Of a stretch of 38,483 nt of DNA, positions 1,826-38,032 are shown one piece after another. Made by a program: the position numbers and the translations under genes. Source of the stretch: a virus; IMG/VR virus record IMGVR_UViG_3300042480_001415, positions 1 through 38,483 of that record; one strand, 5' to 3'. The notes below the pieces were generated by a model, which was not told the DNA's origin, ran no database searches, and worked only from the letters and a program-made list of their open reading frames with translations. The first letter of the stretch is position 1. The number at the start of each line of letters is the position of its first letter.

Positions 1826-3256
1826 TCAGATGAAGACGGCGTCGAAGGTCACGATGAACATGATGACGCCCGTCGTCGTGACCGTGCCCACGTTCTTGGC
1901 GGCAATGGCGACGAATTCGCCCGGAAGCACCGCGATGGGGTTGGCGAAAGCCATGTACTGCCCACCCACTGAGCCGAGCGTGCCGACCGCCGCGTTGAGC
2001 GCAAGCGTCTCGAGCCCGATGGGCAGGCGCCGCGGGGCCTTGGTGGTCGCACCTTCGGCCGTGGCCAGCGACAGGGCCGTGTGGCCGTAGCAGAACGAGT
2101 ACTCGTAGAGCACCGGGCCGCCCGCCAGCACCGTGGTGACGATGCTCTGAATGCGCACGCCCTTGATGAGCAGCGTCTTGGCGGGGATGGCGCTGGTAGG
2201 CAGGGGATTCTGGTAGCTGCAGACGATGCCGTCGGTGTTGGCGGCCAGCGTCGGAAGCGCAGCGAACTGCCCGCCCAACCCCGAGCCCAGCGCCGCGGTG
2301 GTGTTCGTCATCGCGGCGCCAGCACCCGGCGCCAGCGAGTTGGTGAGCAGCGCGGTGCTGCCCATGGTGTGGCCCGTCTGCCCCTGCGAGCCGTGCTTCC
2401 CGCCGATGGCCATGAGCGTGGGCGTGTCGATGGCGAGCCCGACGGCGTCCTGCAACCCGACGCAAAGGTAGCCGATGCGCAGCTGCACGGCGAGCGACGG
2501 CACGCCGCTGTTGTACACGCGCGCGAAGAAGGGCTGAGCGGGCGCGTAGACCGGAAAGCCAGCGGTGACGGGCGTCGAGATGACGGCCTGCACCACGCCA
2601 TTGATGGCGAAGAAGACACGATCGTTCTCGACCGTGATTTTGTAGCGGTGCATCACGTTGTCGGCCGGCGCTGTCAACGGCCCGCTCTGCACCTCGGTGC
2701 CGTTGACGTTGATGACCGCGAGCAGCTGGCCCGACGCGTTGTACCGGAAGAAGGCGCCGTCAGTGGGGGCCGCCGTGCCGGTCGCAATGCCGAAACCCAT
2801 CTCGACCACGCAGTTGTTCTGCGGCGGCTGAGTCAGCAGCGCATCGAACGTCGTGTAGGTCGCGAGATCCGCGAAGAAGGGAAGGTGCGCATACGTCGAG
2901 ACGCGCGCCACCGTGGCTGTGGTGGTGAGGTTGGATGCGTTGAGGTTGAGCGTGCCGCCCGCTGTCGTCACCGTCATCGTCGTGACCGGCGCCGTGAAGA
3001 CGGCGGAGTTCAACGTGGTGTTGTTGAAGAACTCGTTGAGCAACGCGACCGGCTGCCCGACCGAGAGGCGCCCCTGAGCCGACGTGCGAATCTCTTCGAC
3101 GAGAATCCCGGCAGGGTCCCCGCTCCCCGAGAGCTCGCCGGCGAGTTGCACGAAGCCCGCCTGATTCGGAATGACGGGCAGCGCTACCTTGAGGTTGTTG
3201 TTGGAGTCGACCTCAGCGAGGTTGCTCGTGCCGCGAATGTTGGTGTCCAACGCCAT
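1826..3256 (-). CDS. Putative tail fibre / receptor-binding structural protein
   Basis: A 476-aa protein from ATG 3256, with GAGGAG nine bases upstream. It is rich in Thr, Ala, Asn and short beta-prone segments. It opens with MALDTNIRGTSNLAEVDSNN, a start type typical of phage tail or head fibre proteins. The middle (about 85-270) reads like a jelly-roll or concanavalin-like carbohydrate-binding region (VVEMGFGIATG..., FAINGVVQAVI). The C-terminal part (about 345-476) again reads as beta sandwich. It is the largest gene at the distal end of the late operon, where receptor-binding proteins usually lie. The function is inferred from composition and position. Confidence 0.55.
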   Translation of the reverse strand: MALDTNIRGTSNLAEVDSNNNLKVALPVIPNQAGFVQLAGELSGSGDPAGILVEEIRTSAQGRLSVGQPVALLNEFFNNTTLNSAVFTAPVTTMTVTTAGGTLNLNASNLTTTATVARVSTYAHLPFFADLATYTTFDALLTQPPQNNCVVEMGFGIATGTAAPTDGAFFRYNASGQLLAVINVNGTEVQSGPLTAPADNVMHRYKITVENDRVFFAINGVVQAVISTPVTAGFPVYAPAQPFFARVYNSGVPSLAVQLRIGYLCVGLQDAVGLAIDTPTLMAIGGKHGSQGQTGHTMGSTALLTNSLAPGAGAAMTNTTAALGSGLGGQFAALPTLAANTDGIVCSYQNPLPTSAIPAKTLLIKGVRIQSIVTTVLAGGPVLYEYSFCYGHTALSLATAEGATTKAPRRLPIGLETLALNAAVGTLGSVGGQYMAFANPIAVLPGEFVAIAAKNVGTVTTTGVIMFIVTFDAVFI

Positions 3257-3267
3257 GGTGTGTCTCC

Positions 3268-3558
3268 TCAGTCAGCCCAGACGAACTGCAGGGTGAATTG
3301 CCCGGTGAGCTTCTCGGTGCTGCGGGCGTAGATGGTGAAGCCGGTGCCAGAAACGACGTCGCCGCACGAGAGACCGGTGAAGAGCGCCGCGTACGAGTGG
3401 TCGTTCACTGAGTGACTCGCCGACGTGCTGCGCATGAAGAAGGCCTCGACCTTCGCGCTGCCGCCGATGCCCGTGACGCCGGTGACGACGACAGAGGCCT
3501 CATTCGCCCCAGGCATCGCGCCGAAGTCGATGGTGGCGGTGCCGGTGCCCGATGCCAT
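3268..3558 (-). CDS. Small beta-rich structural protein
   Basis: Ninety-six residues from ATG 3558. It begins MASGTGTATIDFGAMPGANEASVVVTG, a pattern common in short phage virion proteins with an Ig-like or beta-sandwich fold, and ends TGQFTLQFVWAD. It sits between the fibre-like gene and two other small structural genes with gaps of about 11 bp. No enzyme motif is seen; a minor tail or fibre-associated protein is the best guess. Confidence 0.55.
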   Translation of the reverse strand: MASGTGTATIDFGAMPGANEASVVVTGVTGIGGSAKVEAFFMRSTSASHSVNDHSYAALFTGLSCGDVVSGTGFTIYARSTEKLTGQFTLQFVWAD

Positions 3559-27823: not shown

Positions 27824-28044
27824 CGAACACCTCCGAAGAGCCCGAGCTGCCCGGCCTTCTGAATGCGCTCGAGCGCCTCGACCTTGAGCAGCAGGCACGC
27901 TCCCTGGGAGCCGTCGGGCGCCTGGTCGAGCTGCACCCGCACGTACTCGGGCCAGCTCGCATCGCGGGCGGTCGGCTCGACGACGATGCCGGTGCGATTG
28001 GTGAAGTAGCTGTCGGTGTGGCGAACGGTGGTGCCGGGCGTCAT
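27820..28044 (-). CDS. Small beta-barrel-like hypothetical protein
   Basis: Seventy-four residues from ATG 28044 (ATGA overlap with the methyltransferase stop). Pattern of a small SH3-like or KOW-type fold: TPGTTVRHTDSYFTNRTGIVVEP, then WPEYVRVQLDQAPDGSQ. Not assigned to a family. Confidence 0.5.
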   Translation of the reverse strand: MTPGTTVRHTDSYFTNRTGIVVEPTARDASWPEYVRVQLDQAPDGSQGACLLLKVEALERIQKAGQLGLFGGVR

Positions 28045-29747
28045 GCGGCCTCCAGCGCGCGCGTGGCGTTGGCCTTCACGACGGCTTCAGCGACCTCGGG
28101 GCACACGCTGTTCCCGATGAGTCGAACCTGTGCCGACTTCGTCTTCGCCGCGCTGAGGTCGTACCCCTCGGCGAAGCGGCCGAACTGTGCGCGCAGCAAC
28201 TCGTGCGGCTCGAGCATGCGCATGCCGATGTCGGTGATGACGTGCTCGACGCCCGCGATGGTGACGAGCCCGAAGCGATCCTTCGTGACGACGGTGCGGA
28301 GCGGCTCGCGCACGTCCTGCCCGACGTCGCCGCTGCCGTAGTAGGCCGCGAGGAACGCGCGCACCTCGGCGATGTGATTCCCACCGGCGGTGACGGTGGG
28401 GAGTGGGGCCTCGACGTCAGCGCCCGCGCACTCGCCGCGGAGCTTGATGAGGGTGCTCGTGACCAGGCTGTGGTGGTCCTTCGTCGTGACGGTGCTGACT
28501 CTCTCGCGCATCGGCGTGCCGACCACGCCGCCGAAGTGCTTCGCGAGGAACGCCGACACGAGCGCGTGCTTTTGGCCCTGAGCCATCACCGTGCCGAGCG
28601 GCTCGTGGAGGTCGAGGTGGCGCGGTCGCTGGCCCTTTCTCTCGCCGTACCCGGTCTGAATGAGCGTGGGAGCAACGAGGGCGTGACCCCGGCGTGCCGC
28701 GGTGACCGTCGAGAGCGGTCGAGCAGCGTCTTCGACGCGGTCGCCGCCGCTGTGGTTGACCTTCATGATCACGGGCGTGACCACGCAGCGGTCGTTCTTC
28801 GCCGTGATGGTGCCCACGGGAGCGTTGCCCGCCGTCGGGGCGCTCTCGCCAGCTCGACCGCCACAGCCAGCAACGAACGGCGACACGAGCGCGTGCCGGG
28901 CCTTCGTGGTCACGGTGGCGATGGGCTGGTCGATGCCCGAGGTCGCGTGGGTGCTCGACTGGTGGTCGATGGTGATGACGAACGGGTCAGCCGCCTCGAG
29001 CACGAAGCGACGAATGCCGGCGGCGATGCGTCGAAGCGTCTTGTCGGCGAGAGGGCGCTTGCGCTCGAAAATGCTCGGGCACGGGAGGGACCAGTCGATG
29101 CACTCCGCGGCGGTGTGGAAGGGCAGGCGACCGGGGCCGTGCGTCGGCTCAGGCCAGACGATGGGGCGGCCGTCGCATCGGGCGACCACGAAGAGGCGCT
29201 TCCGCTTCGTCGGTGCGCCAAACTCCGAAGCGTCAAGCACCTTCCACTCGACCTGGTAGCCGAGCAACTCGAGCCGCACCTTCCAGCGGTTGAAGAGCTC
29301 GCCCGCGCGCTCCTTGATGGGGAAGCCGTTGCGGTCGAGCGGGCCCCAACCGAGGAACTCGCGCACGTTCTCGACGAAGATGCGCGTGGGCTTCACGGCC
29401 TGCGCCCACTGCACGACCACCTCGGCGAGCGAGCGGATGTTCTGCTTCCGCGGCTTGCCGCCCTTCGCCACCGAGAAGTGGGTGCAGTCGGGCGACGCCC
29501 ACAGCACGTCGACCTTCTTGCCCGACGTCGCGATGCGCGGGTCCACCTCGAAGACGTCGGTGGTGTAGTGCTTCGTCGCCGGGTGGTTGGCCTCGTGCAC
29601 CGCGATGGCGGTGGGTGAGTGGTTGATGGCCACGGAGACCGAGCGACCGAGAGCAGCCTCGAGCCCGGTGCTCGCGCCGCCGCCACCGGCGAACAGGTCG
29701 ATGACCAGTCCGTTGCGGCTGTCGATGAAGCGAGGGGGCGCGCTCAT
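28041..29747 (-). CDS. DNA (cytosine-5) methyltransferase with tandem-repeat target-recognition region
   Basis: A 568-aa protein from ATG 29747. Motif I VIDLFAGGGGASTGLE (about residues 15-30) binds SAM. The catalytic motif IV reads WASPDCTHFS (Cys88), where most C5 methyltransferases have PPC. ENVREF (about 126-131) is motif VI, and TKRKRLFVVA replaces QxRxR. Between about residues 260 and 490 come about six copies of a repeat of roughly 45 residues with the core P-x-x-TVT-x-x-x-x-x-ALV, in place of a usual target-recognition domain. Motifs IX-X (MRMLEPHELLRAQFG, RLIGNSVCPEVAEAV) are intact. It should modify cytosines in phage DNA, probably to block host restriction. Confidence 0.9.
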   Translation of the reverse strand: MSAPPRFIDSRNGLVIDLFAGGGGASTGLEAALGRSVSVAINHSPTAIAVHEANHPATKHYTTDVFEVDPRIATSGKKVDVLWASPDCTHFSVAKGGKPRKQNIRSLAEVVVQWAQAVKPTRIFVENVREFLGWGPLDRNGFPIKERAGELFNRWKVRLELLGYQVEWKVLDASEFGAPTKRKRLFVVARCDGRPIVWPEPTHGPGRLPFHTAAECIDWSLPCPSIFERKRPLADKTLRRIAAGIRRFVLEAADPFVITIDHQSSTHATSGIDQPIATVTTKARHALVSPFVAGCGGRAGESAPTAGNAPVGTITAKNDRCVVTPVIMKVNHSGGDRVEDAARPLSTVTAARRGHALVAPTLIQTGYGERKGQRPRHLDLHEPLGTVMAQGQKHALVSAFLAKHFGGVVGTPMRERVSTVTTKDHHSLVTSTLIKLRGECAGADVEAPLPTVTAGGNHIAEVRAFLAAYYGSGDVGQDVREPLRTVVTKDRFGLVTIAGVEHVITDIGMRMLEPHELLRAQFGRFAEGYDLSAAKTKSAQVRLIGNSVCPEVAEAVVKANATRALEAA

Positions 29748-30819: not shown

Positions 30820-30964
30820 CCTCGTTTCCGAGGGGAATTGCAGTGACCCTAAGGGGATTCGAACCCCTGTTACCGGCTTGAAAGGGCTGTCACCTTCTGA
30901 CTTCATGGATTCATTCTGCATGGTTGGCCTCGTTCTGAAAACCGGTGGTGGGCGCGTGGTGGGC
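30759..30964. other. attP: attP: tRNA-Glu 3' half core with four integrase arm-type sites
   Basis: The core (30844-30884) read on the minus strand is the 3' half of a tRNA-Glu gene: anticodon loop CTTTCAA (anticodon TTC), 3' anticodon stem GCCGG, TAAC, T-arm AGGGG-TTCGAAT-CCCCT, then TAGGGTC and A. The 5' half is not tRNA. Around the loop, plus-strand GTTACCGGC and GGCTGTCAC are imperfect inverted repeats flanking the 7-bp TTGAAAG at 30878-30884, a good crossover. The 9-mer GTGGTGGGC occurs at 30759, 30770, 30945 and 30956, in two pairs each spaced 11 bp, about 60-65 bp from the core on both sides. The integrase gene starts 20 bp beyond. Confidence 0.8.
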
Positions 30965-30984: not shown

Positions 30985-32055
30985 GTGGCTGTGAAGTGGA
31001 AGCGGGTCGATTCATGGGAGGGCGGCTACGTGCGGCAGCGAGTCGACGAGTCGGGGAAGCCGACCGGCGCGCCGGTGTTCGTCATTGAGAAAGAGATCCA
31101 CGGCGCACGCTTTCACGTGAGCACGCGGTGCACCGACCGGCAGCGCGCGATGCGGCACCTGGTTCGTTTCGAAGCCGACCCGAGCACGTACACCCCGGCA
31201 GGCAGCGACGCGCGATTGCCCGACGTTCGTCTCACAGCGCAGCTCGTCGGCGAGTACCGCGCGTTCCAGCTCGAGAAGGGCATCACGTCGGAATGGGCCG
31301 CCGAGGTGGTTCGCTGCCTCGCCGACTGGATTGACGCGCTGGGGCCCGTCGACCTGCGAAAGGTCTCCCTGCACCAGCACCTGAAGCCGGCGCTCGAGGC
31401 TTGGCCGAAGCGTCGCAGTCAGCGCATCAAGGCGCTGAAGGGGTTCTTCAAGTGGCTGCGCACGGAGAAGGGGCTGATCAAGCACGCGGAAGACGCGACA
31501 CTCGACCTCCGCGTCCCGCAGGCACGCCCCGAGAAGTTCCGACGCCGAAAGGTCGTCGCGCACGAAGACGTGCAGGCCGCGCTGCTCAAGCTCAAGCCGC
31601 CCTTCAGCGACATCCTGCACGTGCTCGCGGGCACCGGCCTTCACGTGAGCGAGATTCGCAGGCTGGTGCTCGGACAGGGCGAGGTGGTCGAGACCACCAA
31701 AGAGAGACCTGTCGCCGTGATTCTCGTTCGGCAGAAGTCGGGCGAGATGACGCGAGCTCGCCTTGAATACCCCGAGTACCTGGACTCGATGCGCCGACTG
31801 ATGGCGCGCGGCAGCTTCCCGAACCGCATGGGCCTCGCTCGAGCCATGAAGGCCGCCTGCGATGCGGCAGGCGTGCCTCGCTTCGGCATGGGCGTGATGC
31901 GCCACTCGTTCCTCACGTGGGCGCACGAAGACGGCGCGGAGATGGGCGCACTGAAGGAAGCCGCCAACCACCGAACCGAAGCGACGACGCGACGCTTCTA
32001 CGTCGACGCCGCGATTCCGGTTGGCGTGCTCCCGATTCGACGACTTCAGCGCTGA
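30985..32055 (+). CDS. int: Tyrosine recombinase integrase
   Basis: A 356-aa protein from GTG 30985, just beside attP. The N-terminal 75 residues can be the arm-binding domain and residues about 80-170 a helical core-binding domain (LVGEYRAFQLEKGITSEWAAEVV..., KALKGFFKWLRTEKGLI). The catalytic domain shows TGLHVSEIRRL (His220 where Arg I is expected), the beta-hairpin Lys (VRQKSGE, K251), GMGVMRHSFLTW (Gly303 in place of the first box-II His; Arg306), ANHRTEATTRRFYV (His329 and nucleophile Tyr339). Two of the usual catalytic residues therefore differ. It is transcribed rightward, against the leftward early unit, and its 3' end overlaps the excisionase gene by 10 bp. Confidence 0.9.
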   Translation: MAVKWKRVDSWEGGYVRQRVDESGKPTGAPVFVIEKEIHGARFHVSTRCTDRQRAMRHLVRFEADPSTYTPAGSDARLPDVRLTAQLVGEYRAFQLEKGITSEWAAEVVRCLADWIDALGPVDLRKVSLHQHLKPALEAWPKRRSQRIKALKGFFKWLRTEKGLIKHAEDATLDLRVPQARPEKFRRRKVVAHEDVQAALLKLKPPFSDILHVLAGTGLHVSEIRRLVLGQGEVVETTKERPVAVILVRQKSGEMTRARLEYPEYLDSMRRLMARGSFPNRMGLARAMKAACDAAGVPRFGMGVMRHSFLTWAHEDGAEMGALKEAANHRTEATTRRFYVDAAIPVGVLPIRRLQR

Positions 32056-32420
32056 CGAAGAAGGGCGCGAGCGGCCGCTGCTTCCGCGCTGGTGGCCTTC
32101 ACCATCGCCTTGCGCTTCATCGCCTTGGCCTGCAGCACGGCCCGCGTCTTGGCCGCGACCGGCTTCTGACCGTGCTCCGGCATCGCAGCGGAGCGACGCG
32201 GCGTCAGAAGACGCTGCACCTCGGACAACGGCACGCGCGGCTTGCTCGACACCATCACCACCAGCAGCTCGCCGCGCCGAATCATCCGCCGCAACGTCTG
32301 TTCCGACACCGCCAACCGCTTCGCCGCCTCGCTCGGCTTCAGCGCCGAGACGACCGGCGCACCCAACTCCTCCCGCACGACCTGCCTCAACAGCGCCAGC
32401 AGCTTCCCCTCGTCCATCAT
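32046..32420 (-). CDS. Excisionase-like helix-turn-helix protein
   Basis: A 124-aa protein from ATG 32420 with AAGGAAG upstream. Residues about 28-70 form a MerR/HTH_17-type DNA-binding fold: LKPSEAAKRLAVSEQTLRRMIRRGELLVVMV, then PRVPLSEVQRLL. The C-terminal half is basic and Ala-rich (KAMKRKAMVKATSAEAAAAR). It is convergent with the integrase and overlaps it by 10 bp. Proteins of this type often act as recombination directionality factors, so excisionase is the best guess; a transcription factor role is also possible. Confidence 0.65.
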   Translation of the reverse strand: MMDEGKLLALLRQVVREELGAPVVSALKPSEAAKRLAVSEQTLRRMIRRGELLVVMVSSKPRVPLSEVQRLLTPRRSAAMPEHGQKPVAAKTRAVLQAKAMKRKAMVKATSAEAAAARALLRQR

Positions 32421-32439
32421 GTGGTGCTTCCTTGCGGTG

Positions 32440-32481
32440 CATGGGCTTCCTCAGTGCCCATGGCGACGGACTGCCGTCCGT
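32440..32481. promoter_or_regulatory. Two adjacent hairpins upstream of the excisionase-like gene
   Basis: CATGGGC (32440-32446) pairs with GCCCATG (32456-32462), and ACGGAC (32466-32471) with GTCCGT (32476-32481). Both lie in the 140-bp gap between the candidate regulator and the excisionase-like gene on the leftward transcript. They could modulate read-through or translation. No T-tract follows. Confidence 0.4.
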
Positions 32482-32560
32482 GGGCAACGTCATAGCCGTG
32501 GTGACTGACAAGTGACTGGTTCCGCGAAGTTGCGTCAGCGCCCAGCAACGGGCGCGGCGC

Positions 32561-32863
32561 TCACTTCGCCTTCTTCGCTTCGGCAATCAGGCGAGCGATG
32601 ACCTTGTTCATCTCTTCGTCGGTCTTCGGCTCGCCGCCCAGCTCAGCAAATGCGGCCTCGAGCGAGGCGTCGATGAGACGACGCGCACCCTCGGCTTCCG
32701 TCCACTCTTTCCCCTCGGGGTTCTGCACGCGGTCGAGCGCAGTCCACACCTGAAGCAGTCGCGTGAATCGCTGCGCCTGGGGCTTGGTGAGGAAGGTCGT
32801 CACGCGCTCCGAGTACGTCTCTTTGGGTCGGTAGAGCGGCGCCACGACTTCGGACTCAACCAT
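32561..32863 (-). CDS. Leftward switch gene, candidate regulator of unknown family
   Basis: One hundred residues from ATG 32863, chosen because GGCGGAG lies five bases upstream. An alternative ATG at 32908 (115 aa) has no Shine-Dalgarno and would be nearly leaderless relative to the predicted promoter. The protein is basic and helical after residue 20: YSERVTTFLTKPQAQRFTRLLQVW, then WTEAEGARRLIDASLEAAFAEL and EEMNKVIARLIAEAKKAK. No helix-turn-helix is recognisable. Being the first gene of the leftward promoter in the switch, it is a candidate repressor or anti-repressor. Confidence 0.6.
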   Translation of the reverse strand: MVESEVVAPLYRPKETYSERVTTFLTKPQAQRFTRLLQVWTALDRVQNPEGKEWTEAEGARRLIDASLEAAFAELGGEPKTDEEMNKVIARLIAEAKKAK

Positions 32864-32917
32864 CGCTGCTCCGCCTGCGCCACTGAACATCCTTGCCGGT
32901 GCATTCATGGTGACTCA

Positions 32918-32947
32918 CGTATGGCACACAGTTGTGTCGAAAGTCAA
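32918..32947 (-). promoter_or_regulatory. Leftward switch promoter (PL-like)
   Basis: On the minus strand, TTGACT (32947-32942), a 17-base spacer containing ACACAACTGTGTG, and CCATAC (or CATACG with 18) as the -10. It is the mirror of the rightward promoter, with the same -35 and an operator-like half-site pair in the spacer. It would drive the candidate regulator gene. Confidence 0.65.
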
Positions 32948-32992
32948 CACTGGCAAACACGAGGTTGTGTTGACTTCGACACAACGTTGTGT
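32926..32992. promoter_or_regulatory. Switch operators: GTTGTGT / ACACAAC repeats
   Basis: ACACAACGTTGTGT (32979-32992) is a perfect 14-bp palindrome. Further half-sites GTTGTGT occur at 32931-32937 (facing ACACA at 32926) and at 32964-32970 (with AACAC 5' of it). A larger inverted repeat joins TTGTGTCGAAAGTCAACAC on the left to GTGTTGACTTCGACACAA on the right. Operators lie inside both promoter spacers. Confidence 0.75.
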
Positions 32993-32998
32993 AACTAT
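32970..32998 (+). promoter_or_regulatory. Rightward switch promoter (PR-like)
   Basis: TTGACT at 32970-32975, a 17-base spacer holding the perfect palindrome, and AACTAT at 32993-32998 as -10 (TAACTA one base earlier also possible). It would drive the rightward operon from 33097, with an untranslated leader of about 90 bases. Confidence 0.65.
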
Positions 32999-33096
32999 CT
33001 TCTCACGGTCGACGTTGACCGGACGGCGGGCGGGCAGGGCGTGAGTGGCGAGCGGCAGTTGCCGAGTCGGTTCTCGAAGTGACCGGGTGAAGACAG

Positions 33097-33444
33097 ATGA
33101 ACGCATTGACTCGTGGTGAGTCGTACGCAGTGCGCACGGTGCGCGAAGAGGTGTACGGCGCGCGCACCGCTCTCGAAACGCTGAGCAAACGCCTCGCATC
33201 CGTCGACCTCGGCGAGATGCACTCACACGCGCGCTGGGAAGAACTGGCTCAGGCCGCCGCCAACGTGGCGCGCCTCGACGACGTGCTCGAGTCGTTGCTC
33301 GAAGGCAAAGAGGTGCTCGAGCTGCACGCGAAGCTGGCCTACGAGTTGACCGGCGCGGTGTGCCGCGACGAGCAGCGGCTGAGCGCGCAGTGCGACCGGC
33401 GCGCCCTCGCCCACGTCCTTCGCATGCTGGAGCGCGTCCTGTGA
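33097..33444 (+). CDS. First gene of the rightward early operon, hypothetical helical protein
   Basis: A 115-aa protein from ATG 33097. It is helical and charged: SYAVRTVREEVYGARTALETLSKRL, then WEELAQAAANVARLDDVLESLL and CDRRALAHVLRMLERVL. No DNA-binding motif is evident. First genes after such a promoter are often regulators or early takeover proteins. It is coupled to the next gene by GTGA at 33441. Confidence 0.6.
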   Translation: MNALTRGESYAVRTVREEVYGARTALETLSKRLASVDLGEMHSHARWEELAQAAANVARLDDVLESLLEGKEVLELHAKLAYELTGAVCRDEQRLSAQCDRRALAHVLRMLERVL

Positions 33445-33965
33445 GCGCGTGGGCGACGTCGAAGTGCCGCATCATCACCGAGGCCGAGCTGATGCTCGAA
33501 GGGCCCATCAAGGGCGAGCTGACCCTTGAAGAGGTGTACCGCTCCGCGCGCGCCGTCGCGCTGTGCAAGGTGTGCGGCTGCCTCCGCCTGAAGCGGGAAC
33601 TCGTCGAGACGCGCATCATGGGCGTGCGCTGCATCGACGAGAAGATGTGCATGCGCCGGGGCGAGGTCGACCACGACGACGGGCGCGGTGAGGCAACGAC
33701 GCGCGCCGAGCGCCCGAAGTGGCACCGCACGGGCACAGCTCCGAAGGTGGACGTGGCTTCGACCTGGTGCCGCTGCGGGAAGTGCAGCCGCCTCTACAAC
33801 CCACGCAACTGGGAGCTGCTGACGCTGGTCGACGCCAGCGACGAAGAGCAGGGGGACCTCGTCATTCACTCCGTGACGAAGCGCTGCCTGTGCGGCGAGT
33901 CGCTGCGCGTCACCTCGGAGCGGCTGCGGGGGACGAGCGTCTACGTGAAGGCGGGTGCGCCGTGA
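33441..33965 (+). CDS. Zinc-binding hypothetical protein
   Basis: A 174-aa protein from GTG 33441 (GTGA overlap); a longer frame starting earlier is antisense. Three Cys clusters: LCKVCGCLRL (about residues 41-50), WCRCGKCSRL (about 109-118) and KRCLCGES (about 147-154). They suggest one or two zinc ribbons. It lies between the first early gene and the recombination genes. Function unknown. Confidence 0.6.
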   Translation: MSAWATSKCRIITEAELMLEGPIKGELTLEEVYRSARAVALCKVCGCLRLKRELVETRIMGVRCIDEKMCMRRGEVDHDDGRGEATTRAERPKWHRTGTAPKVDVASTWCRCGKCSRLYNPRNWELLTLVDASDEEQGDLVIHSVTKRCLCGESLRVTSERLRGTSVYVKAGAP

Positions 33966-34225
33966 CGACCATCGCCGAAATTCTGGAGCACGTCGAAGAG
34001 GCTATTCGCGCGGAGACGAAGGAGCAGGCCTCGCTCGCGAAGTCCCTCATCGCGGCGAAGCTGGCGCCGCTCACCGGCGAGTCGATGCAGGCGGCCTTCG
34101 ATGCGCTGCGCACGAACATCGACACGCCGCTGCGGCTGGGCAACGTGGTGCGGCATCACGTCAGTGTGCCCGAGCGCGAGCATCGCGCGCCGCTGCGGCT
34201 GGTGGAGACCAACGATGTTGACTGA
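33962..34225 (+). CDS. Small hypothetical protein upstream of the exonuclease
   Basis: Eighty-seven residues from GTG 33962 (GTGA overlap). Begins MTTIAEILEHVEEAIRAETKEQ, then a helical stretch and a polar C-terminus. Its 3' end overlaps the YqaJ start by 11 bp. Not recognised; small accessory proteins are common upstream of phage exonuclease genes. Confidence 0.5.
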   Translation: MTTIAEILEHVEEAIRAETKEQASLAKSLIAAKLAPLTGESMQAAFDALRTNIDTPLRLGNVVRHHVSVPEREHRAPLRLVETNDVD

Positions 34226-35096
34226 GGCACAGCTCGAAGAGCGCAAGACGGGCATCGGCGGCTCTGAGGTGGGAGCCATTCTCGGGGAGTCGCGGTTCGC
34301 CGCACCCTTCGATGTGTGGCTCTCGAAGGTGCACGGGTGGCGGCTGGAAGAGACGGACGACATGCGGCGCGGCTCGTTTCTCGAGGACGGCATCGCGCGC
34401 TGGTACGCGCAGCGGTACGGGCACGACCTCTCGCGCCTCAGCGAGTGCAAGACGCTCCGTCACCGGCTGCATCCGTGGGCGCTCTGCACGTCAGACCGCA
34501 TGGTGACAGCCCCCGCTGGTCGCGAGCTGCTGCTCTCCATCAAGTCGCCCCGGCGTGGTGGTGGCGAATGGGGCGACGCGGGAACGGACCAGGTTCCGCC
34601 CGAGTACCTCCTGCAGCTCCAGTGGGAGTGGGCGATTCACGCGAGCCACGGCATGCACCTCGAGGAGACGATGCACCTCGCCGCGCTGCTCGATGGCGAC
34701 CTCGAGGTGTTCATCATCAAGGCCGACGTCGAGCTTCAGCGGTGGATGCTGGAGGCGGCGGGCGCGTGGTGGGAGCGGCACGTCGTGCAAGGCGTGCAGC
34801 CCGAGCTCGACGGCAGCAGTCAGGCGCGCGCGTGGCTGCAGCGTCGCTTCAACGCGAACAACGCCGCGTTCCGCGAGGCCACGCCGCAAGAGGCGACGCG
34901 GATGCTGGCGCTGGAGTTGGTCGAGCGCGACGTGAAGCAGCTCGAGGTCGAAGCCGAGACGCTGCGCAACGAGTTGAAGCTTTTGATGGGCGAGACGACG
35001 CGCATCACTGGCCCGAATGGGCGCATCGATTGGAAGTCGAACGTGAAGCAGGTCCGCAGTTTCAAACCGAAGTGGAACAAGGAGCAGTCACCATGA
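34215..35096 (+). CDS. YqaJ-type phage exonuclease
   Basis: A 293-aa protein from ATG 34215. It resects double-stranded ends so that RecT can anneal strands. The YqaJ/lambda-exo hallmark RKTGIGGSEVGAILGESRF is at about residues 10-28. A catalytic core follows: RRGSFLEDGIARWYA (Glu near 56), CTSDRMVTAP (Asp), LLLSIKSPRRGG (Lys near 109). The C-terminal third is helical (LELVERDVKQLEVEAETLRNELK) and may be the RecT-contact part. ATGA overlap joins it to recT. Confidence 0.85.
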   Translation: MLTEAQLEERKTGIGGSEVGAILGESRFAAPFDVWLSKVHGWRLEETDDMRRGSFLEDGIARWYAQRYGHDLSRLSECKTLRHRLHPWALCTSDRMVTAPAGRELLLSIKSPRRGGGEWGDAGTDQVPPEYLLQLQWEWAIHASHGMHLEETMHLAALLDGDLEVFIIKADVELQRWMLEAAGAWWERHVVQGVQPELDGSSQARAWLQRRFNANNAAFREATPQEATRMLALELVERDVKQLEVEAETLRNELKLLMGETTRITGPNGRIDWKSNVKQVRSFKPKWNKEQSP

Positions 35097-35950
35097 GCGA
35101 GGCGATTCAGAAGAGCGAAGCGGGTGCGGTGCAGGCGGCGAAGCCGAAGGACGCGGCGATGACGCTGAAGGACCTGCTGGTGTCCAACCAGAAGGCCATC
35201 ACGTCGCTGGTGCCCGAGCACCTGACGCCCGAGCGGCTGATGCGGGTGGCCGTCAACTGCGTGGCGAAGACGCCGGGGCTGCAGAAGTGCACGCCCACGT
35301 CGCTGCTGCAGTGCGTGATGGCGGCGGCCGAGGTGGGGCTCGAGCCCGGTGGCGTGCTGGGTCAGTTCTACCTGGTGCCCATGGGCAACGTGGCGACGCC
35401 CATCATCGGGTACCGCGGCCTGCTGGAGCTGGCGCGGCGCAGCGGCCAAATCGCCAGCATCCGCGCGGTGGTGGTGCGCGAGAAGGACCGCTTCCGCATG
35501 ACCGAGGGCATCGAGCAGACCCTCGACCACGAGCCCTTCCTCGACGGGGACGCCGGGCCGATGAAGTACGTCTACGCGGTTGCGAAGCTGCGCGACGGCT
35601 CCGTGCAGGTCGAGGTGATGTCGCGTGCGCAGGTGGACGGCATTCGCGCTCGCAGCCGCGCGGGCAGCTCGGGGCCGTGGGTGACTGACTACGACGAGAT
35701 GGCGAAGAAGACGGTGCTGCGCCGCCTCTCGAAGTGGCTGCCGCTCGCGACGGAGCGCTGGGAGAAGGCGCTCGAGCTGGACAACGGCGACTACGTCGAC
35801 GGCGAGGCGGTGCAGGCCACCGAGGCGACCGTCTCCGAGTTGGTGTCGGTGAAGGAGCGCGTGAAGGCGCGCCGCCAGCTCATCACCGACGCCCCGCCGG
35901 TCAACATGCCGCCCGAGGAAGAGCAGCCTCCCGCGCCTGACGCCGCCTGA
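35093..35950 (+). CDS. recT: RecT-family single-strand annealing recombinase
   Basis: A 285-aa protein from ATG 35093. RecT-like signature at about residues 48-97: LMRVAVNCVAKTPGLQKCTP, SLLQCVMAAAEVGLEPG, GQFYLVPMGN, IIGYRGLLELARRSG. It pairs with the YqaJ exonuclease in a coupled operon to recombine phage DNA ends, for example for circularisation or gene exchange. The C-terminus is acidic and Pro-rich (NMPPEEEQPPAPDA). Confidence 0.9.
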   Translation: MSEAIQKSEAGAVQAAKPKDAAMTLKDLLVSNQKAITSLVPEHLTPERLMRVAVNCVAKTPGLQKCTPTSLLQCVMAAAEVGLEPGGVLGQFYLVPMGNVATPIIGYRGLLELARRSGQIASIRAVVVREKDRFRMTEGIEQTLDHEPFLDGDAGPMKYVYAVAKLRDGSVQVEVMSRAQVDGIRARSRAGSSGPWVTDYDEMAKKTVLRRLSKWLPLATERWEKALELDNGDYVDGEAVQATEATVSELVSVKERVKARRQLITDAPPVNMPPEEEQPPAPDAA

Positions 35951-36023: not shown

Positions 36024-36064
36024 ACACCACCGCTGGCCCGGCGTTCGGCGAGGGCGAAGTTCCG

Positions 36065-36133
36065 GGGCTCATTTCTGGCGAGGGGCGCGGCTGATCACCG
36101 CGCTGAGCGAGGTTCGATTCCTCGGGGCCCCAC
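36065..36133 (+). tRNA. tRNA-Ile(GAT), weak D-arm
   Basis: Acceptor GGGGCTC with GGGCCCC (7 pairs, one G-U), anticodon stem CGCGG/CCGCG around CTGATCA (anticodon GAT), variable CTGAG, T-arm CGAGG-TTCGATT-CCTCG, then A. The D-arm is poor (four-base loop, two G-U pairs). Position 37 is C, unusual for a tRNA. The gene may be degenerate or a phage-type minimal tRNA. Confidence 0.65.
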
Positions 36134-36489: not shown

Positions 36490-36560
36490 ACGGACGTGGC
36501 TCGAAGGTCGAGCAGTGCTCTCCAAAAGCACCGGTGAGGGTTCGATTCCCTCCGTCCGTG
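36490..36560 (+). tRNA. tRNA-Trp(CCA)
   Basis: Seventy-one bases. Acceptor ACGGACG/CGTCCGT (7 Watson-Crick pairs), D-stem GCTC/GAGC with a seven-base loop, anticodon stem GTGCT/AGCAC around CTCCAAA (anticodon CCA), variable CGGT, T-arm GAGGG-TTCGATT-CCCTC, discriminator G; CCA is not encoded. All stems pair; the D-loop is short. Confidence 0.85.
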
Positions 36561-36986: not shown

Positions 36987-37038
36987 GGTCGAATTTTGCG
37001 ATATCGTGTTGACGGGAGGTCGAATAACGCGATATCTA
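36987..37038 (+). promoter_or_regulatory. Operator-bearing promoter of the RHH operon
   Basis: TTGACG (37009-37014), 18-base spacer, TATCTA (37033-37038). Two direct repeats flank and overlap it: GGTCGAATTTTGCGATATCG at 36987-37006 and GGTCGAATAACGCGATATCT at 37018-37037, starts 31 bp apart (three turns). The second covers the -10 region. The downstream ribbon-helix-helix protein is the natural candidate autorepressor. Confidence 0.6.
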
Positions 37039-37087: not shown

Positions 37088-37312
37088 ATGGCGACCAAGA
37101 CCACCACCACCACCACCACCACCGTCACCACCATGGACGAACTGACCAGCGACGTCGTCCACCTGGTGGGCCACGACGGCAGCAGCGACATCCGCACCAT
37201 CGTCGAACAGGCCGTCTCTGACGGTGTCACCAGCGCGCGCGAGATCGCCGCCATCGTCCGCGAGGCCCGTGCCGAGTGGGCGGCTGAGCAGAAGCGAGAA
37301 CGTGCGCAGTGA
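37088..37312 (+). CDS. Hypothetical protein with N-terminal poly-Thr tract
   Basis: Seventy-four residues from ATG 37088, with GAGAGAG upstream. An in-frame (ACC)8 run at 37100-37123 encodes eight Thr residues at positions 5-12. A second ATG at 37133 (MDELTSDVV) would skip the tract. The rest is helical (SDIRTIVEQAVSDGVTSAREIAAIVREARAEW). It is coupled to the RHH gene by GTGA. The trinucleotide run could vary in length without changing frame. Function unknown. Confidence 0.55.
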   Translation: MATKTTTTTTTTVTTMDELTSDVVHLVGHDGSSDIRTIVEQAVSDGVTSAREIAAIVREARAEWAAEQKRERAQ

Positions 37313-37509
37313 GCCCCATCAAGAAGCCAAAGCGAGGCCGCCCCGTAGGCAGCGGTGAGCAGCTCGTCGAGGCAAAGGTGCTCGTGAGTGGGCCCAAAGA
37401 ATTACTCGACGCCGCCAGTGAGGCGGCCGAACGTGAGGGCGTGAGCGTGCGCGAGTGGTGGCGGCGAGCTGCGCGCGAGCGGCTCGACGCCGTCAGAACT
37501 CGCCGCTGA
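37309..37509 (+). CDS. Ribbon-helix-helix regulator with AT-hook
   Basis: Sixty-six residues from GTG 37309 (GTGA overlap). The N-terminus KKPKRGRPVGSG is an AT-hook-like DNA-binding motif. A predicted beta strand (VEAKVLVSG) and two helices (KELLDAASEAAEREG, VSVREWWRRAARERL) fit a CopG/Arc-type ribbon-helix-helix. It probably binds the direct repeats upstream of its operon. Ends convergently with the minus-strand gene, overlapping by 17 bp. Confidence 0.65.
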   Translation: MSPIKKPKRGRPVGSGEQLVEAKVLVSGPKELLDAASEAAEREGVSVREWWRRAARERLDAVRTRR

Positions 37510-38032
37510 CGCTGAGCCCTGCAGCGCCCTGAGTCGAGCCCCACGCACCGAGACTGAAGGGCCCGATGATGCGCCGCTCAACCTGCACCCCAAGCACCAA
37601 GGGCCCGGCGATGGTCAGCGCCGGTGGCGTCCACGCAGCACCTGCCAACACGCCCACCCGCCAGTCTGGCCTCGATGTGGTCACCTTCGCCGTCTCCGCG
37701 CGGGTGTCGGCCTTCCGGTCGACGTCGCGGGCGAGCTCGGCGCGCTCGGTCTCCTGCTCGCTGCGCTTCTCGAGCACGGTGCCGTCGGGGCTGGTGGTCT
37801 TCTCGACGTAGACGACCCGGTCCTTCGCGCGGTGCCAGCGCTCGACCGTCTTCTCGCGCGTCACGGTGAGCACGAAGGCGTGCTCTTCGACCAGCTCGAG
37901 CGCGTTCATGCGGCCGATGCCGAAGCCGGTGAAGCCTGCGGCGCCGGCGACCACCACCGCAACCCGGGCAACGCGCCAGGCAGGAAGCGGGGCGATCCAG
38001 CGGTCGAAGCTCTGAAGGCGGAGGTGGTCCAC
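37493..38032 (-). CDS. Membrane-anchored coiled-coil protein, candidate spanin-like
   Basis: A 179-aa protein from GTG 38032; a longer open frame upstream is antisense. A hydrophobic helix at about residues 20-42 (VARVAVVVAGAAGFTGFGIG) anchors it. A charged coiled coil follows (VTREKTVERWHRAKDRVVYV, then KRSEQETERAELARDVDRKAD). The C-terminal 60 residues are strand-rich (RVGVLAGAAWTPPALTIAG, RIIGPFSLGAWGSTQGAAG, ending VSGEF). One helix plus an extracytoplasmic coiled coil and a beta-rich end fits a cell-envelope bridge such as a spanin, but the family is unknown. Last gene of the leftward lysis-like cassette in the circular genome. Confidence 0.55.
   Translation of the reverse strand: MDHLRLQSFDRWIAPLPAWRVARVAVVVAGAAGFTGFGIGRMNALELVEEHAFVLTVTREKTVERWHRAKDRVVYVEKTTSPDGTVLEKRSEQETERAELARDVDRKADTRAETAKVTTSRPDWRVGVLAGAAWTPPALTIAGPLVLGVQVERRIIGPFSLGAWGSTQGAAGLSVSGEF

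Follow-up and report, generated by a model that had tools for sequence, protein, structure and literature searches.

The window analysed here, 38,483 bases with about 68% GC, spans one complete IMG/VR virus record. In it, two genes, gL (leftward) and gR1 (rightward), diverge across a gap of 188 bp (Table 1); at the level of open reading frames, codon-position GC of both is coding-like. From gR1 onward to the RecT gene, the ends of the rightward genes overlap. On the left, the gene of an excisionase-family protein follows gL after a gap of 140 bp and is convergent with the integrase gene; still further left, the minus strand encodes portal, terminase, protease and major head proteins. The divergent control region of a temperate tailed phage is thus located between integration/excision genes and early RecE/RecT recombination genes.

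Table 1. Features of the divergent region and of the genes on either side of it
Feature	Position	Strand	Evidence or remark
Putative attP core	30844..30877	-	34 nt resembling the tRNA-Glu 3' part, upstream of integrase
Tyrosine recombinase (integrase)	30985..32055	+	phrog_1, 5.9e-10; PF00589, 1.1e-4, below its cut-off
Excisionase-family / HTH_17 DNA-binding protein	32046..32420	-	124 aa; candidate regulator and directionality factor
gL, orphan ORF	32561..32908	-	Candidate regulator; 115 aa, or 100 aa from ATG at 32863
Very weak left -10	32918..32924	-	CCATAC at 17 bases (1/6) or CATACG at 18 bases (3/6)
Operator-like site A	32924..32937		Left promoter spacer; perfect heptamer GTTGTGT, other half degenerate
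Large inverted repeat, left arm	32925..32950	+	Local self-alignment, fold
Left -35-like TTGACT	32942..32947	-	Sequence, weight-matrix scan
Operator-like site B	32957..32970		Abuts/overlaps right -35; one perfect heptamer, other half 5/7
Large inverted repeat, right arm	32967..32991	+	Local self-alignment, fold
Right -35-like TTGACT	32970..32975	+	Sequence, weight-matrix scan
Operator-like site C	32979..32992		Right promoter spacer; perfect 14-bp palindrome ACACAACGTTGTGT
Weak right -10-like AACTAT	32993..32998	+	17-base spacer; 3/6
gR1, orphan, first rightward gene	33097..33444	+	115 aa; predicted helical, low confidence
gR2, overlapping rightward gene	33441..33965	+	CxxC-rich; zinc-ribbon-like by eye
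gR3, overlapping rightward gene	33962..34225	+	ORF
RecE-like exonuclease	34215..35096	+	phrog_434, 4.7e-50; 49% identical to that of record L003
RecT-like annealing protein	35093..35950	+	phrog_148, 1.3e-76; PF03837, 6e-46

Temperate gene set and flanking genes

The temperate context consists of the integrase, the excisionase and a putative attP recognised from sequence only. The putative attP core is present at one place in the window, its tRNA identity was judged by eye, and a search of genome contigs revealed no host match. The excisionase-family protein scored 31.5 bits against HTH_17 (cut-off 27) and 35.3 against TIGR01764 (cut-off 28.8), and matched phrog_66 (E 3.6e-9), whose members are annotated "excisionase and transcriptional regulator". 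No other protein near the region has a recognised DNA-binding domain of a regulator type. No relatives of the integrase or of the excisionase-family protein were found in viral contigs.

Three other features of the phage were observed. ARAGORN called tRNA-Ile(GAT) at 36064-36133 and tRNA-Trp(CCA) at 36490-36560, of which only the latter reaches the threshold of Rfam. A large DNA methyltransferase-like ORF (28041-29747) has a PHROG match with E 1.8e-93; the matched stretch of the profile is far shorter than that of the protein, which suggests an inserted segment or domain. L032 (IMGVR_UViG_3300034166_001928), a 24.5-kb contig from another metagenome, encodes a portal protein 100% identical to that of the window and probably represents the same phage population, although window positions 32400-33500 have no match anywhere in it.

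gL had no match in PHROGs, Pfam, NCBIfam, phages, viral contigs or genome contigs, and the one match in plasmids was at chance level. The profile libraries and viral contigs likewise revealed no profile or relative of gR1. The alternative gL start codon is preceded by a ribosome-site-like motif, GGAG. Profile searches of both proteins detected no helix-turn-helix (HTH), ribbon-helix-helix, CI, Cro or Mor match, in agreement with the sequence-only reading, which had noted the lack of a recognisable HTH. The flanking genes therefore do not show the HTH repressor and antirepressor or Cro of a CI/Cro or CI/Mor switch. Single-sequence structure models reached pLDDT 64 (gL) and 54 (gR1). The low-confidence gL model is all-helical with no strand; it gave no meaningful fold match, and no DNA-binding fold was detectable in it. 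A ribbon-helix-helix of the Arc/Mnt or CopG type had been suspected by eye from WTEAEGARRLIDASLEAAF in gL. This candidate was rejected as unsupported: PF01402 and PF03869 gave no match at E<=10, and the low-confidence model lacks a strand. A weak match of gL to PspA/Vipp1 was set aside as generic amphipathic-helix similarity. The leader at 33003-33110 folds worse than shuffles as RNA (z = +1.7), and an RNA structure there was rejected as a candidate. Directly past the gL stop codon, the minus strand has a hairpin, GCGCCC-GTTGCT-GGGCGC (32544-32561), with no T run, which may limit read-through into the excisionase gene.

Inverted repeat, putative promoters and operator-like sites

As the sequence-only reading had stated, TTGACT is present on both strands inside a large inverted repeat. 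Both boxes lie within a perfect 10-bp inverted repeat, AAGTCAACAC / GTGTTGACTT, which extends to CACACAGTTGTGTCGAAAGTCAACAC / GTGTTGACTTCGACACAACGTTGTG if a single bulged base and two mismatches are allowed and the outer part common to both arms is included. In local self-alignment, the 26/25-bp repeat scored 19, the highest value among the 81-bp stretches tested across the window (next highest, 15), and none of 1000 Markov shuffles matched this score. The single-strand DNA fold of the repeat region had z = -5.1. The stretch near 32926-33005 is the most AT-rich 80 bases of the window (56%). Heptamer ACACAAC/GTTGTGT occurs four times in the 38,483 bases, and every copy falls within 32931-32992; when the same AT-rich spacer was Markov-shuffled 1000 times, four copies of any one heptamer within 62 bp appeared in 7 of the shuffles. 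The elements claimed earlier for both spacers are thus present and confined to this region. The perfect 14-bp palindrome is also there; by itself it is unremarkable, because two further 14-bp palindromes and one of 18 bp are found elsewhere in the window. These findings demonstrate that the mirror-image control region is real and non-random.

The -35 boxes are good on both sides and the -10 boxes are weak. A consensus scan of the region revealed no sigma-70 promoter. When the window was scanned with a non-curated weight matrix that approximates E. coli frequencies, the right promoter ranked fourth, mostly through its -35, and the left promoter 22nd. The earlier description of a plausible -10 on both strands was generous: the right hexamer is poor, matching at three of six positions at 17 bases, and the left is very poor, with one of six at that spacing or three of six at 18 bases. 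Judged from these motifs, the right promoter is likely to be active, and activity of the left promoter is doubtful.

The repeated dyad sites A, B and C overlap both putative promoters. Dyad mismatches number 0 in C, 1-2 in B and 2-3 in A, and the outer half of A is shifted by 2 bp. The centres of A, B and C are spaced by 33 and 22 bp, i.e., 3.1 and 2.1 helical turns, so the sites lie on nearly one face of the DNA. In both spacers an ACACAAC element lies 3 or 4 bases past the -35, in identical orientation relative to its promoter. The repeated sites very probably bind a repressor.

Searches for the operator patterns in viral contigs gave no match. When viral contigs were searched for the operator behind a -35, the single match fell within a coding gene, in a phage unrelated to this one, and was rejected as chance; the intergenic DNA had only chance-level matches to phages. 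No relative with these operators was found among the viral contigs and phages searched. Another operator-like promoter region is present in the window at 36987-37036, upstream of two small ORFs (37088-37312 and 37309-37510). A 19-bp direct repeat, GGTCGAATnnnGCGATATC, is present there in two copies, 84% alike and spaced by 31 bp, one of which is in the spacer of TTGACG-18-TATCTA. This region and the one studied here (32918-32998) have GTGTTGAC in common.

Comparison with known control regions

In control of the P2/186 type (Cox or Apl), a small excisionase-type HTH protein is encoded at the divergent region and could serve both excision and repression; the early operon of P2 begins with cox, which faces the repressor gene. 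The window resembles these phages in having an excisionase-type HTH gene, with a putative dual role, at its divergent region; however, this gene lies on the opposite side from the RecE/RecT operon.

The construction of the region appears closest to that of mycobacteriophage BPs and, more loosely, to those of S. aureus phi13 and TP901-1. BPs has divergent promoters, Prep and PR; a palindromic operator of 12 bp separates the -35 of PR from its -10, there is a second, degenerate half-site, and another site is present at Prep (PMC4557955). The BPs 33-34 intergenic region (Prep/PR, OR, ORep) and the window's region are both short, with divergent promoters, a palindromic operator in the early lytic spacer, a degenerate second half-site, and an extra site at the other promoter, the promoters and operators of the window being putative. 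They differ in operator sequence (CGACATATGTCG in BPs). The BPs repressor uses an HTH and its immunity is integration-dependent, whereas in the window the flanking gene has no HTH profile and the putative attP lies upstream of int, with about 2 kb between it and the region. In phi13, the divergent genes cI and mor share three CI operators, of which one has a half-site that deviates and is weaker (PMC8516035). The CI-Mor regions of TP901-1 and phi13 share with the window divergent genes and, between these or close by, three operators (operator-like sites in the window) that consist of inverted half-sites and differ in quality; however, the window has no CI-type or Mor-type protein, and the half-sites are AGTTCAYR in those phages and ACACAAC here.

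The nearest record by RecT is L003 (IMGVR_UViG_3300033493_000006), whose RecE and RecT are 49% and 63% identical to those of the window. It also has a divergent region before the RecE/RecT operon, with an inverted pair, CAGAGTACGCC / GGGGTACTCTG (3232-3242 / 3284-3294); however, its operator sequence, flanking genes and leftward operon are unlike those of the window, and it shows no DNA similarity to the window's region. Operator specificity is often exchanged between related phages in such regions. The comparison of operators in related phages that had been proposed from the sequence gave no match, the L003 pair being a different one. Within L003 3226-3397, a rightward TTGCCT-17-TACTCT has its -10 inside the inverted pair CAGAGTAC/GTACTCTG, and a mirror copy of this pair is on the leftward side.

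Proposed regulation of the two putative promoters

An operator between -35 and -10 normally causes repression by hindrance. Given that the element is identically placed in the two promoters, a single regulator should repress them both. The two sides would then have to differ in degree: perfect C plus B on the rightward side, degenerate A on the leftward side. The sequence-only reading had proposed a lysis-lysogeny switch, and mutually exclusive promoters are unsupported by this geometry. We favour, at a probability of roughly 55%, a divergent early control region in which one phage-encoded regulator represses both promoters, the rightward most strongly. This regulator would bind sites A, B and C, with affinity presumably decreasing from C through B to A. 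C, in the rightward spacer, and B, over the -35, would jointly keep gR1-gR2-gR3-recE-recT, the early operon, silent. Site A matches least well and would repress the leftward unit, with gL and perhaps the excisionase gene, more weakly. That unit would most likely also encode the regulator, as gL or the excisionase-type HTH protein, so that the regulator limits its own level.

This reading is favoured by the strongest inverted repeat, the region-only heptamer, the AT-richest 80 bp, the rise in dyad mismatches from C to A, the likeness in construction to the BPs and phi13 regions, and the position of int and the excisionase gene on the left and of RecE/RecT on the right. Against it are the empty consensus scan, the very poor left -10, the displaced outer half of A, the failure to find an operator-bearing relative, and the lack of a detected DNA-binding fold in gL. 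A repressor sharing a transcript with excisionase would also be unusual for lysogeny, and the 140-bp gap leaves their co-transcription putative.

A serious rival to the switch is coordinate repression of two lytic operons, which we consider possible but clearly less probable than the favoured reading. Both promoters would be lytic (excisionase leftward, recombination rightward) and would be silenced by one repressor through the same element, as in a collapsed version of lambda PL/OL and PR/OR. Candidates for this repressor are gR1, the excisionase in a role like that of P2 Cox, and the product of a gene elsewhere. The shared position and orientation of the element predict the same sign of control at both promoters, the leftward unit encodes a protein of a family annotated for excision and transcriptional regulation, and the different operator-like promoter at 36987-37036 could belong to another regulator. 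However, gL is located where an immunity repressor gene is usually found, and the unequal number and quality of sites suggest unequal control. Repression that differs in degree fits a repressor from the leftward unit that holds the early operon off and tunes itself; it also fits coordinate repression of two lytic units.

Concerning the regulator, the sequence-only reading was right that gL and gR1 lack an HTH; it overlooked the HTH protein beside them. Because this candidate of a known type adjoins gL on the left, the case for a new repressor type is weak. A role of gL as a DNA-binding repressor whose fold is undescribed, with contiguous inverted heptamers ACACAAC/GTTGTGT as its target and autoregulation by way of the weaker site, is improbable. 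Still less probable is binding by a host regulator or nucleoid protein, which would link the phage to the physiology of its host. In favour of this, neither flanking gene matches a DNA-binding profile and the phage regulators named are candidates; however, every phage protein is still a possible binder, and regulators of such regions in temperate phages are usually encoded adjacent to them. A DNA or RNA hairpin in place of protein operators (single-strand initiation site, terminator or attenuator) is the least likely explanation, given that the good single-stranded fold and a terminator-like match on the minus strand (32985-32964) are set against a near-chance terminator count in the region (1 vs 0.7 expected), the extra heptamer of site B, which a hairpin leaves unexplained, and the position of the repeat upstream of both putative start points, so that neither divergent transcript carries all of it.

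As a phage regulatory region, this one is ordinary in kind and new in sequence; the earlier observation was largely right and its interpretation is plausible. The phage has almost no sequenced relatives, and its control region is otherwise of a routine kind. For a temperate phage whose host is GC-rich, the finding would yield an operator sequence together with a few regulators that can be put to the test.
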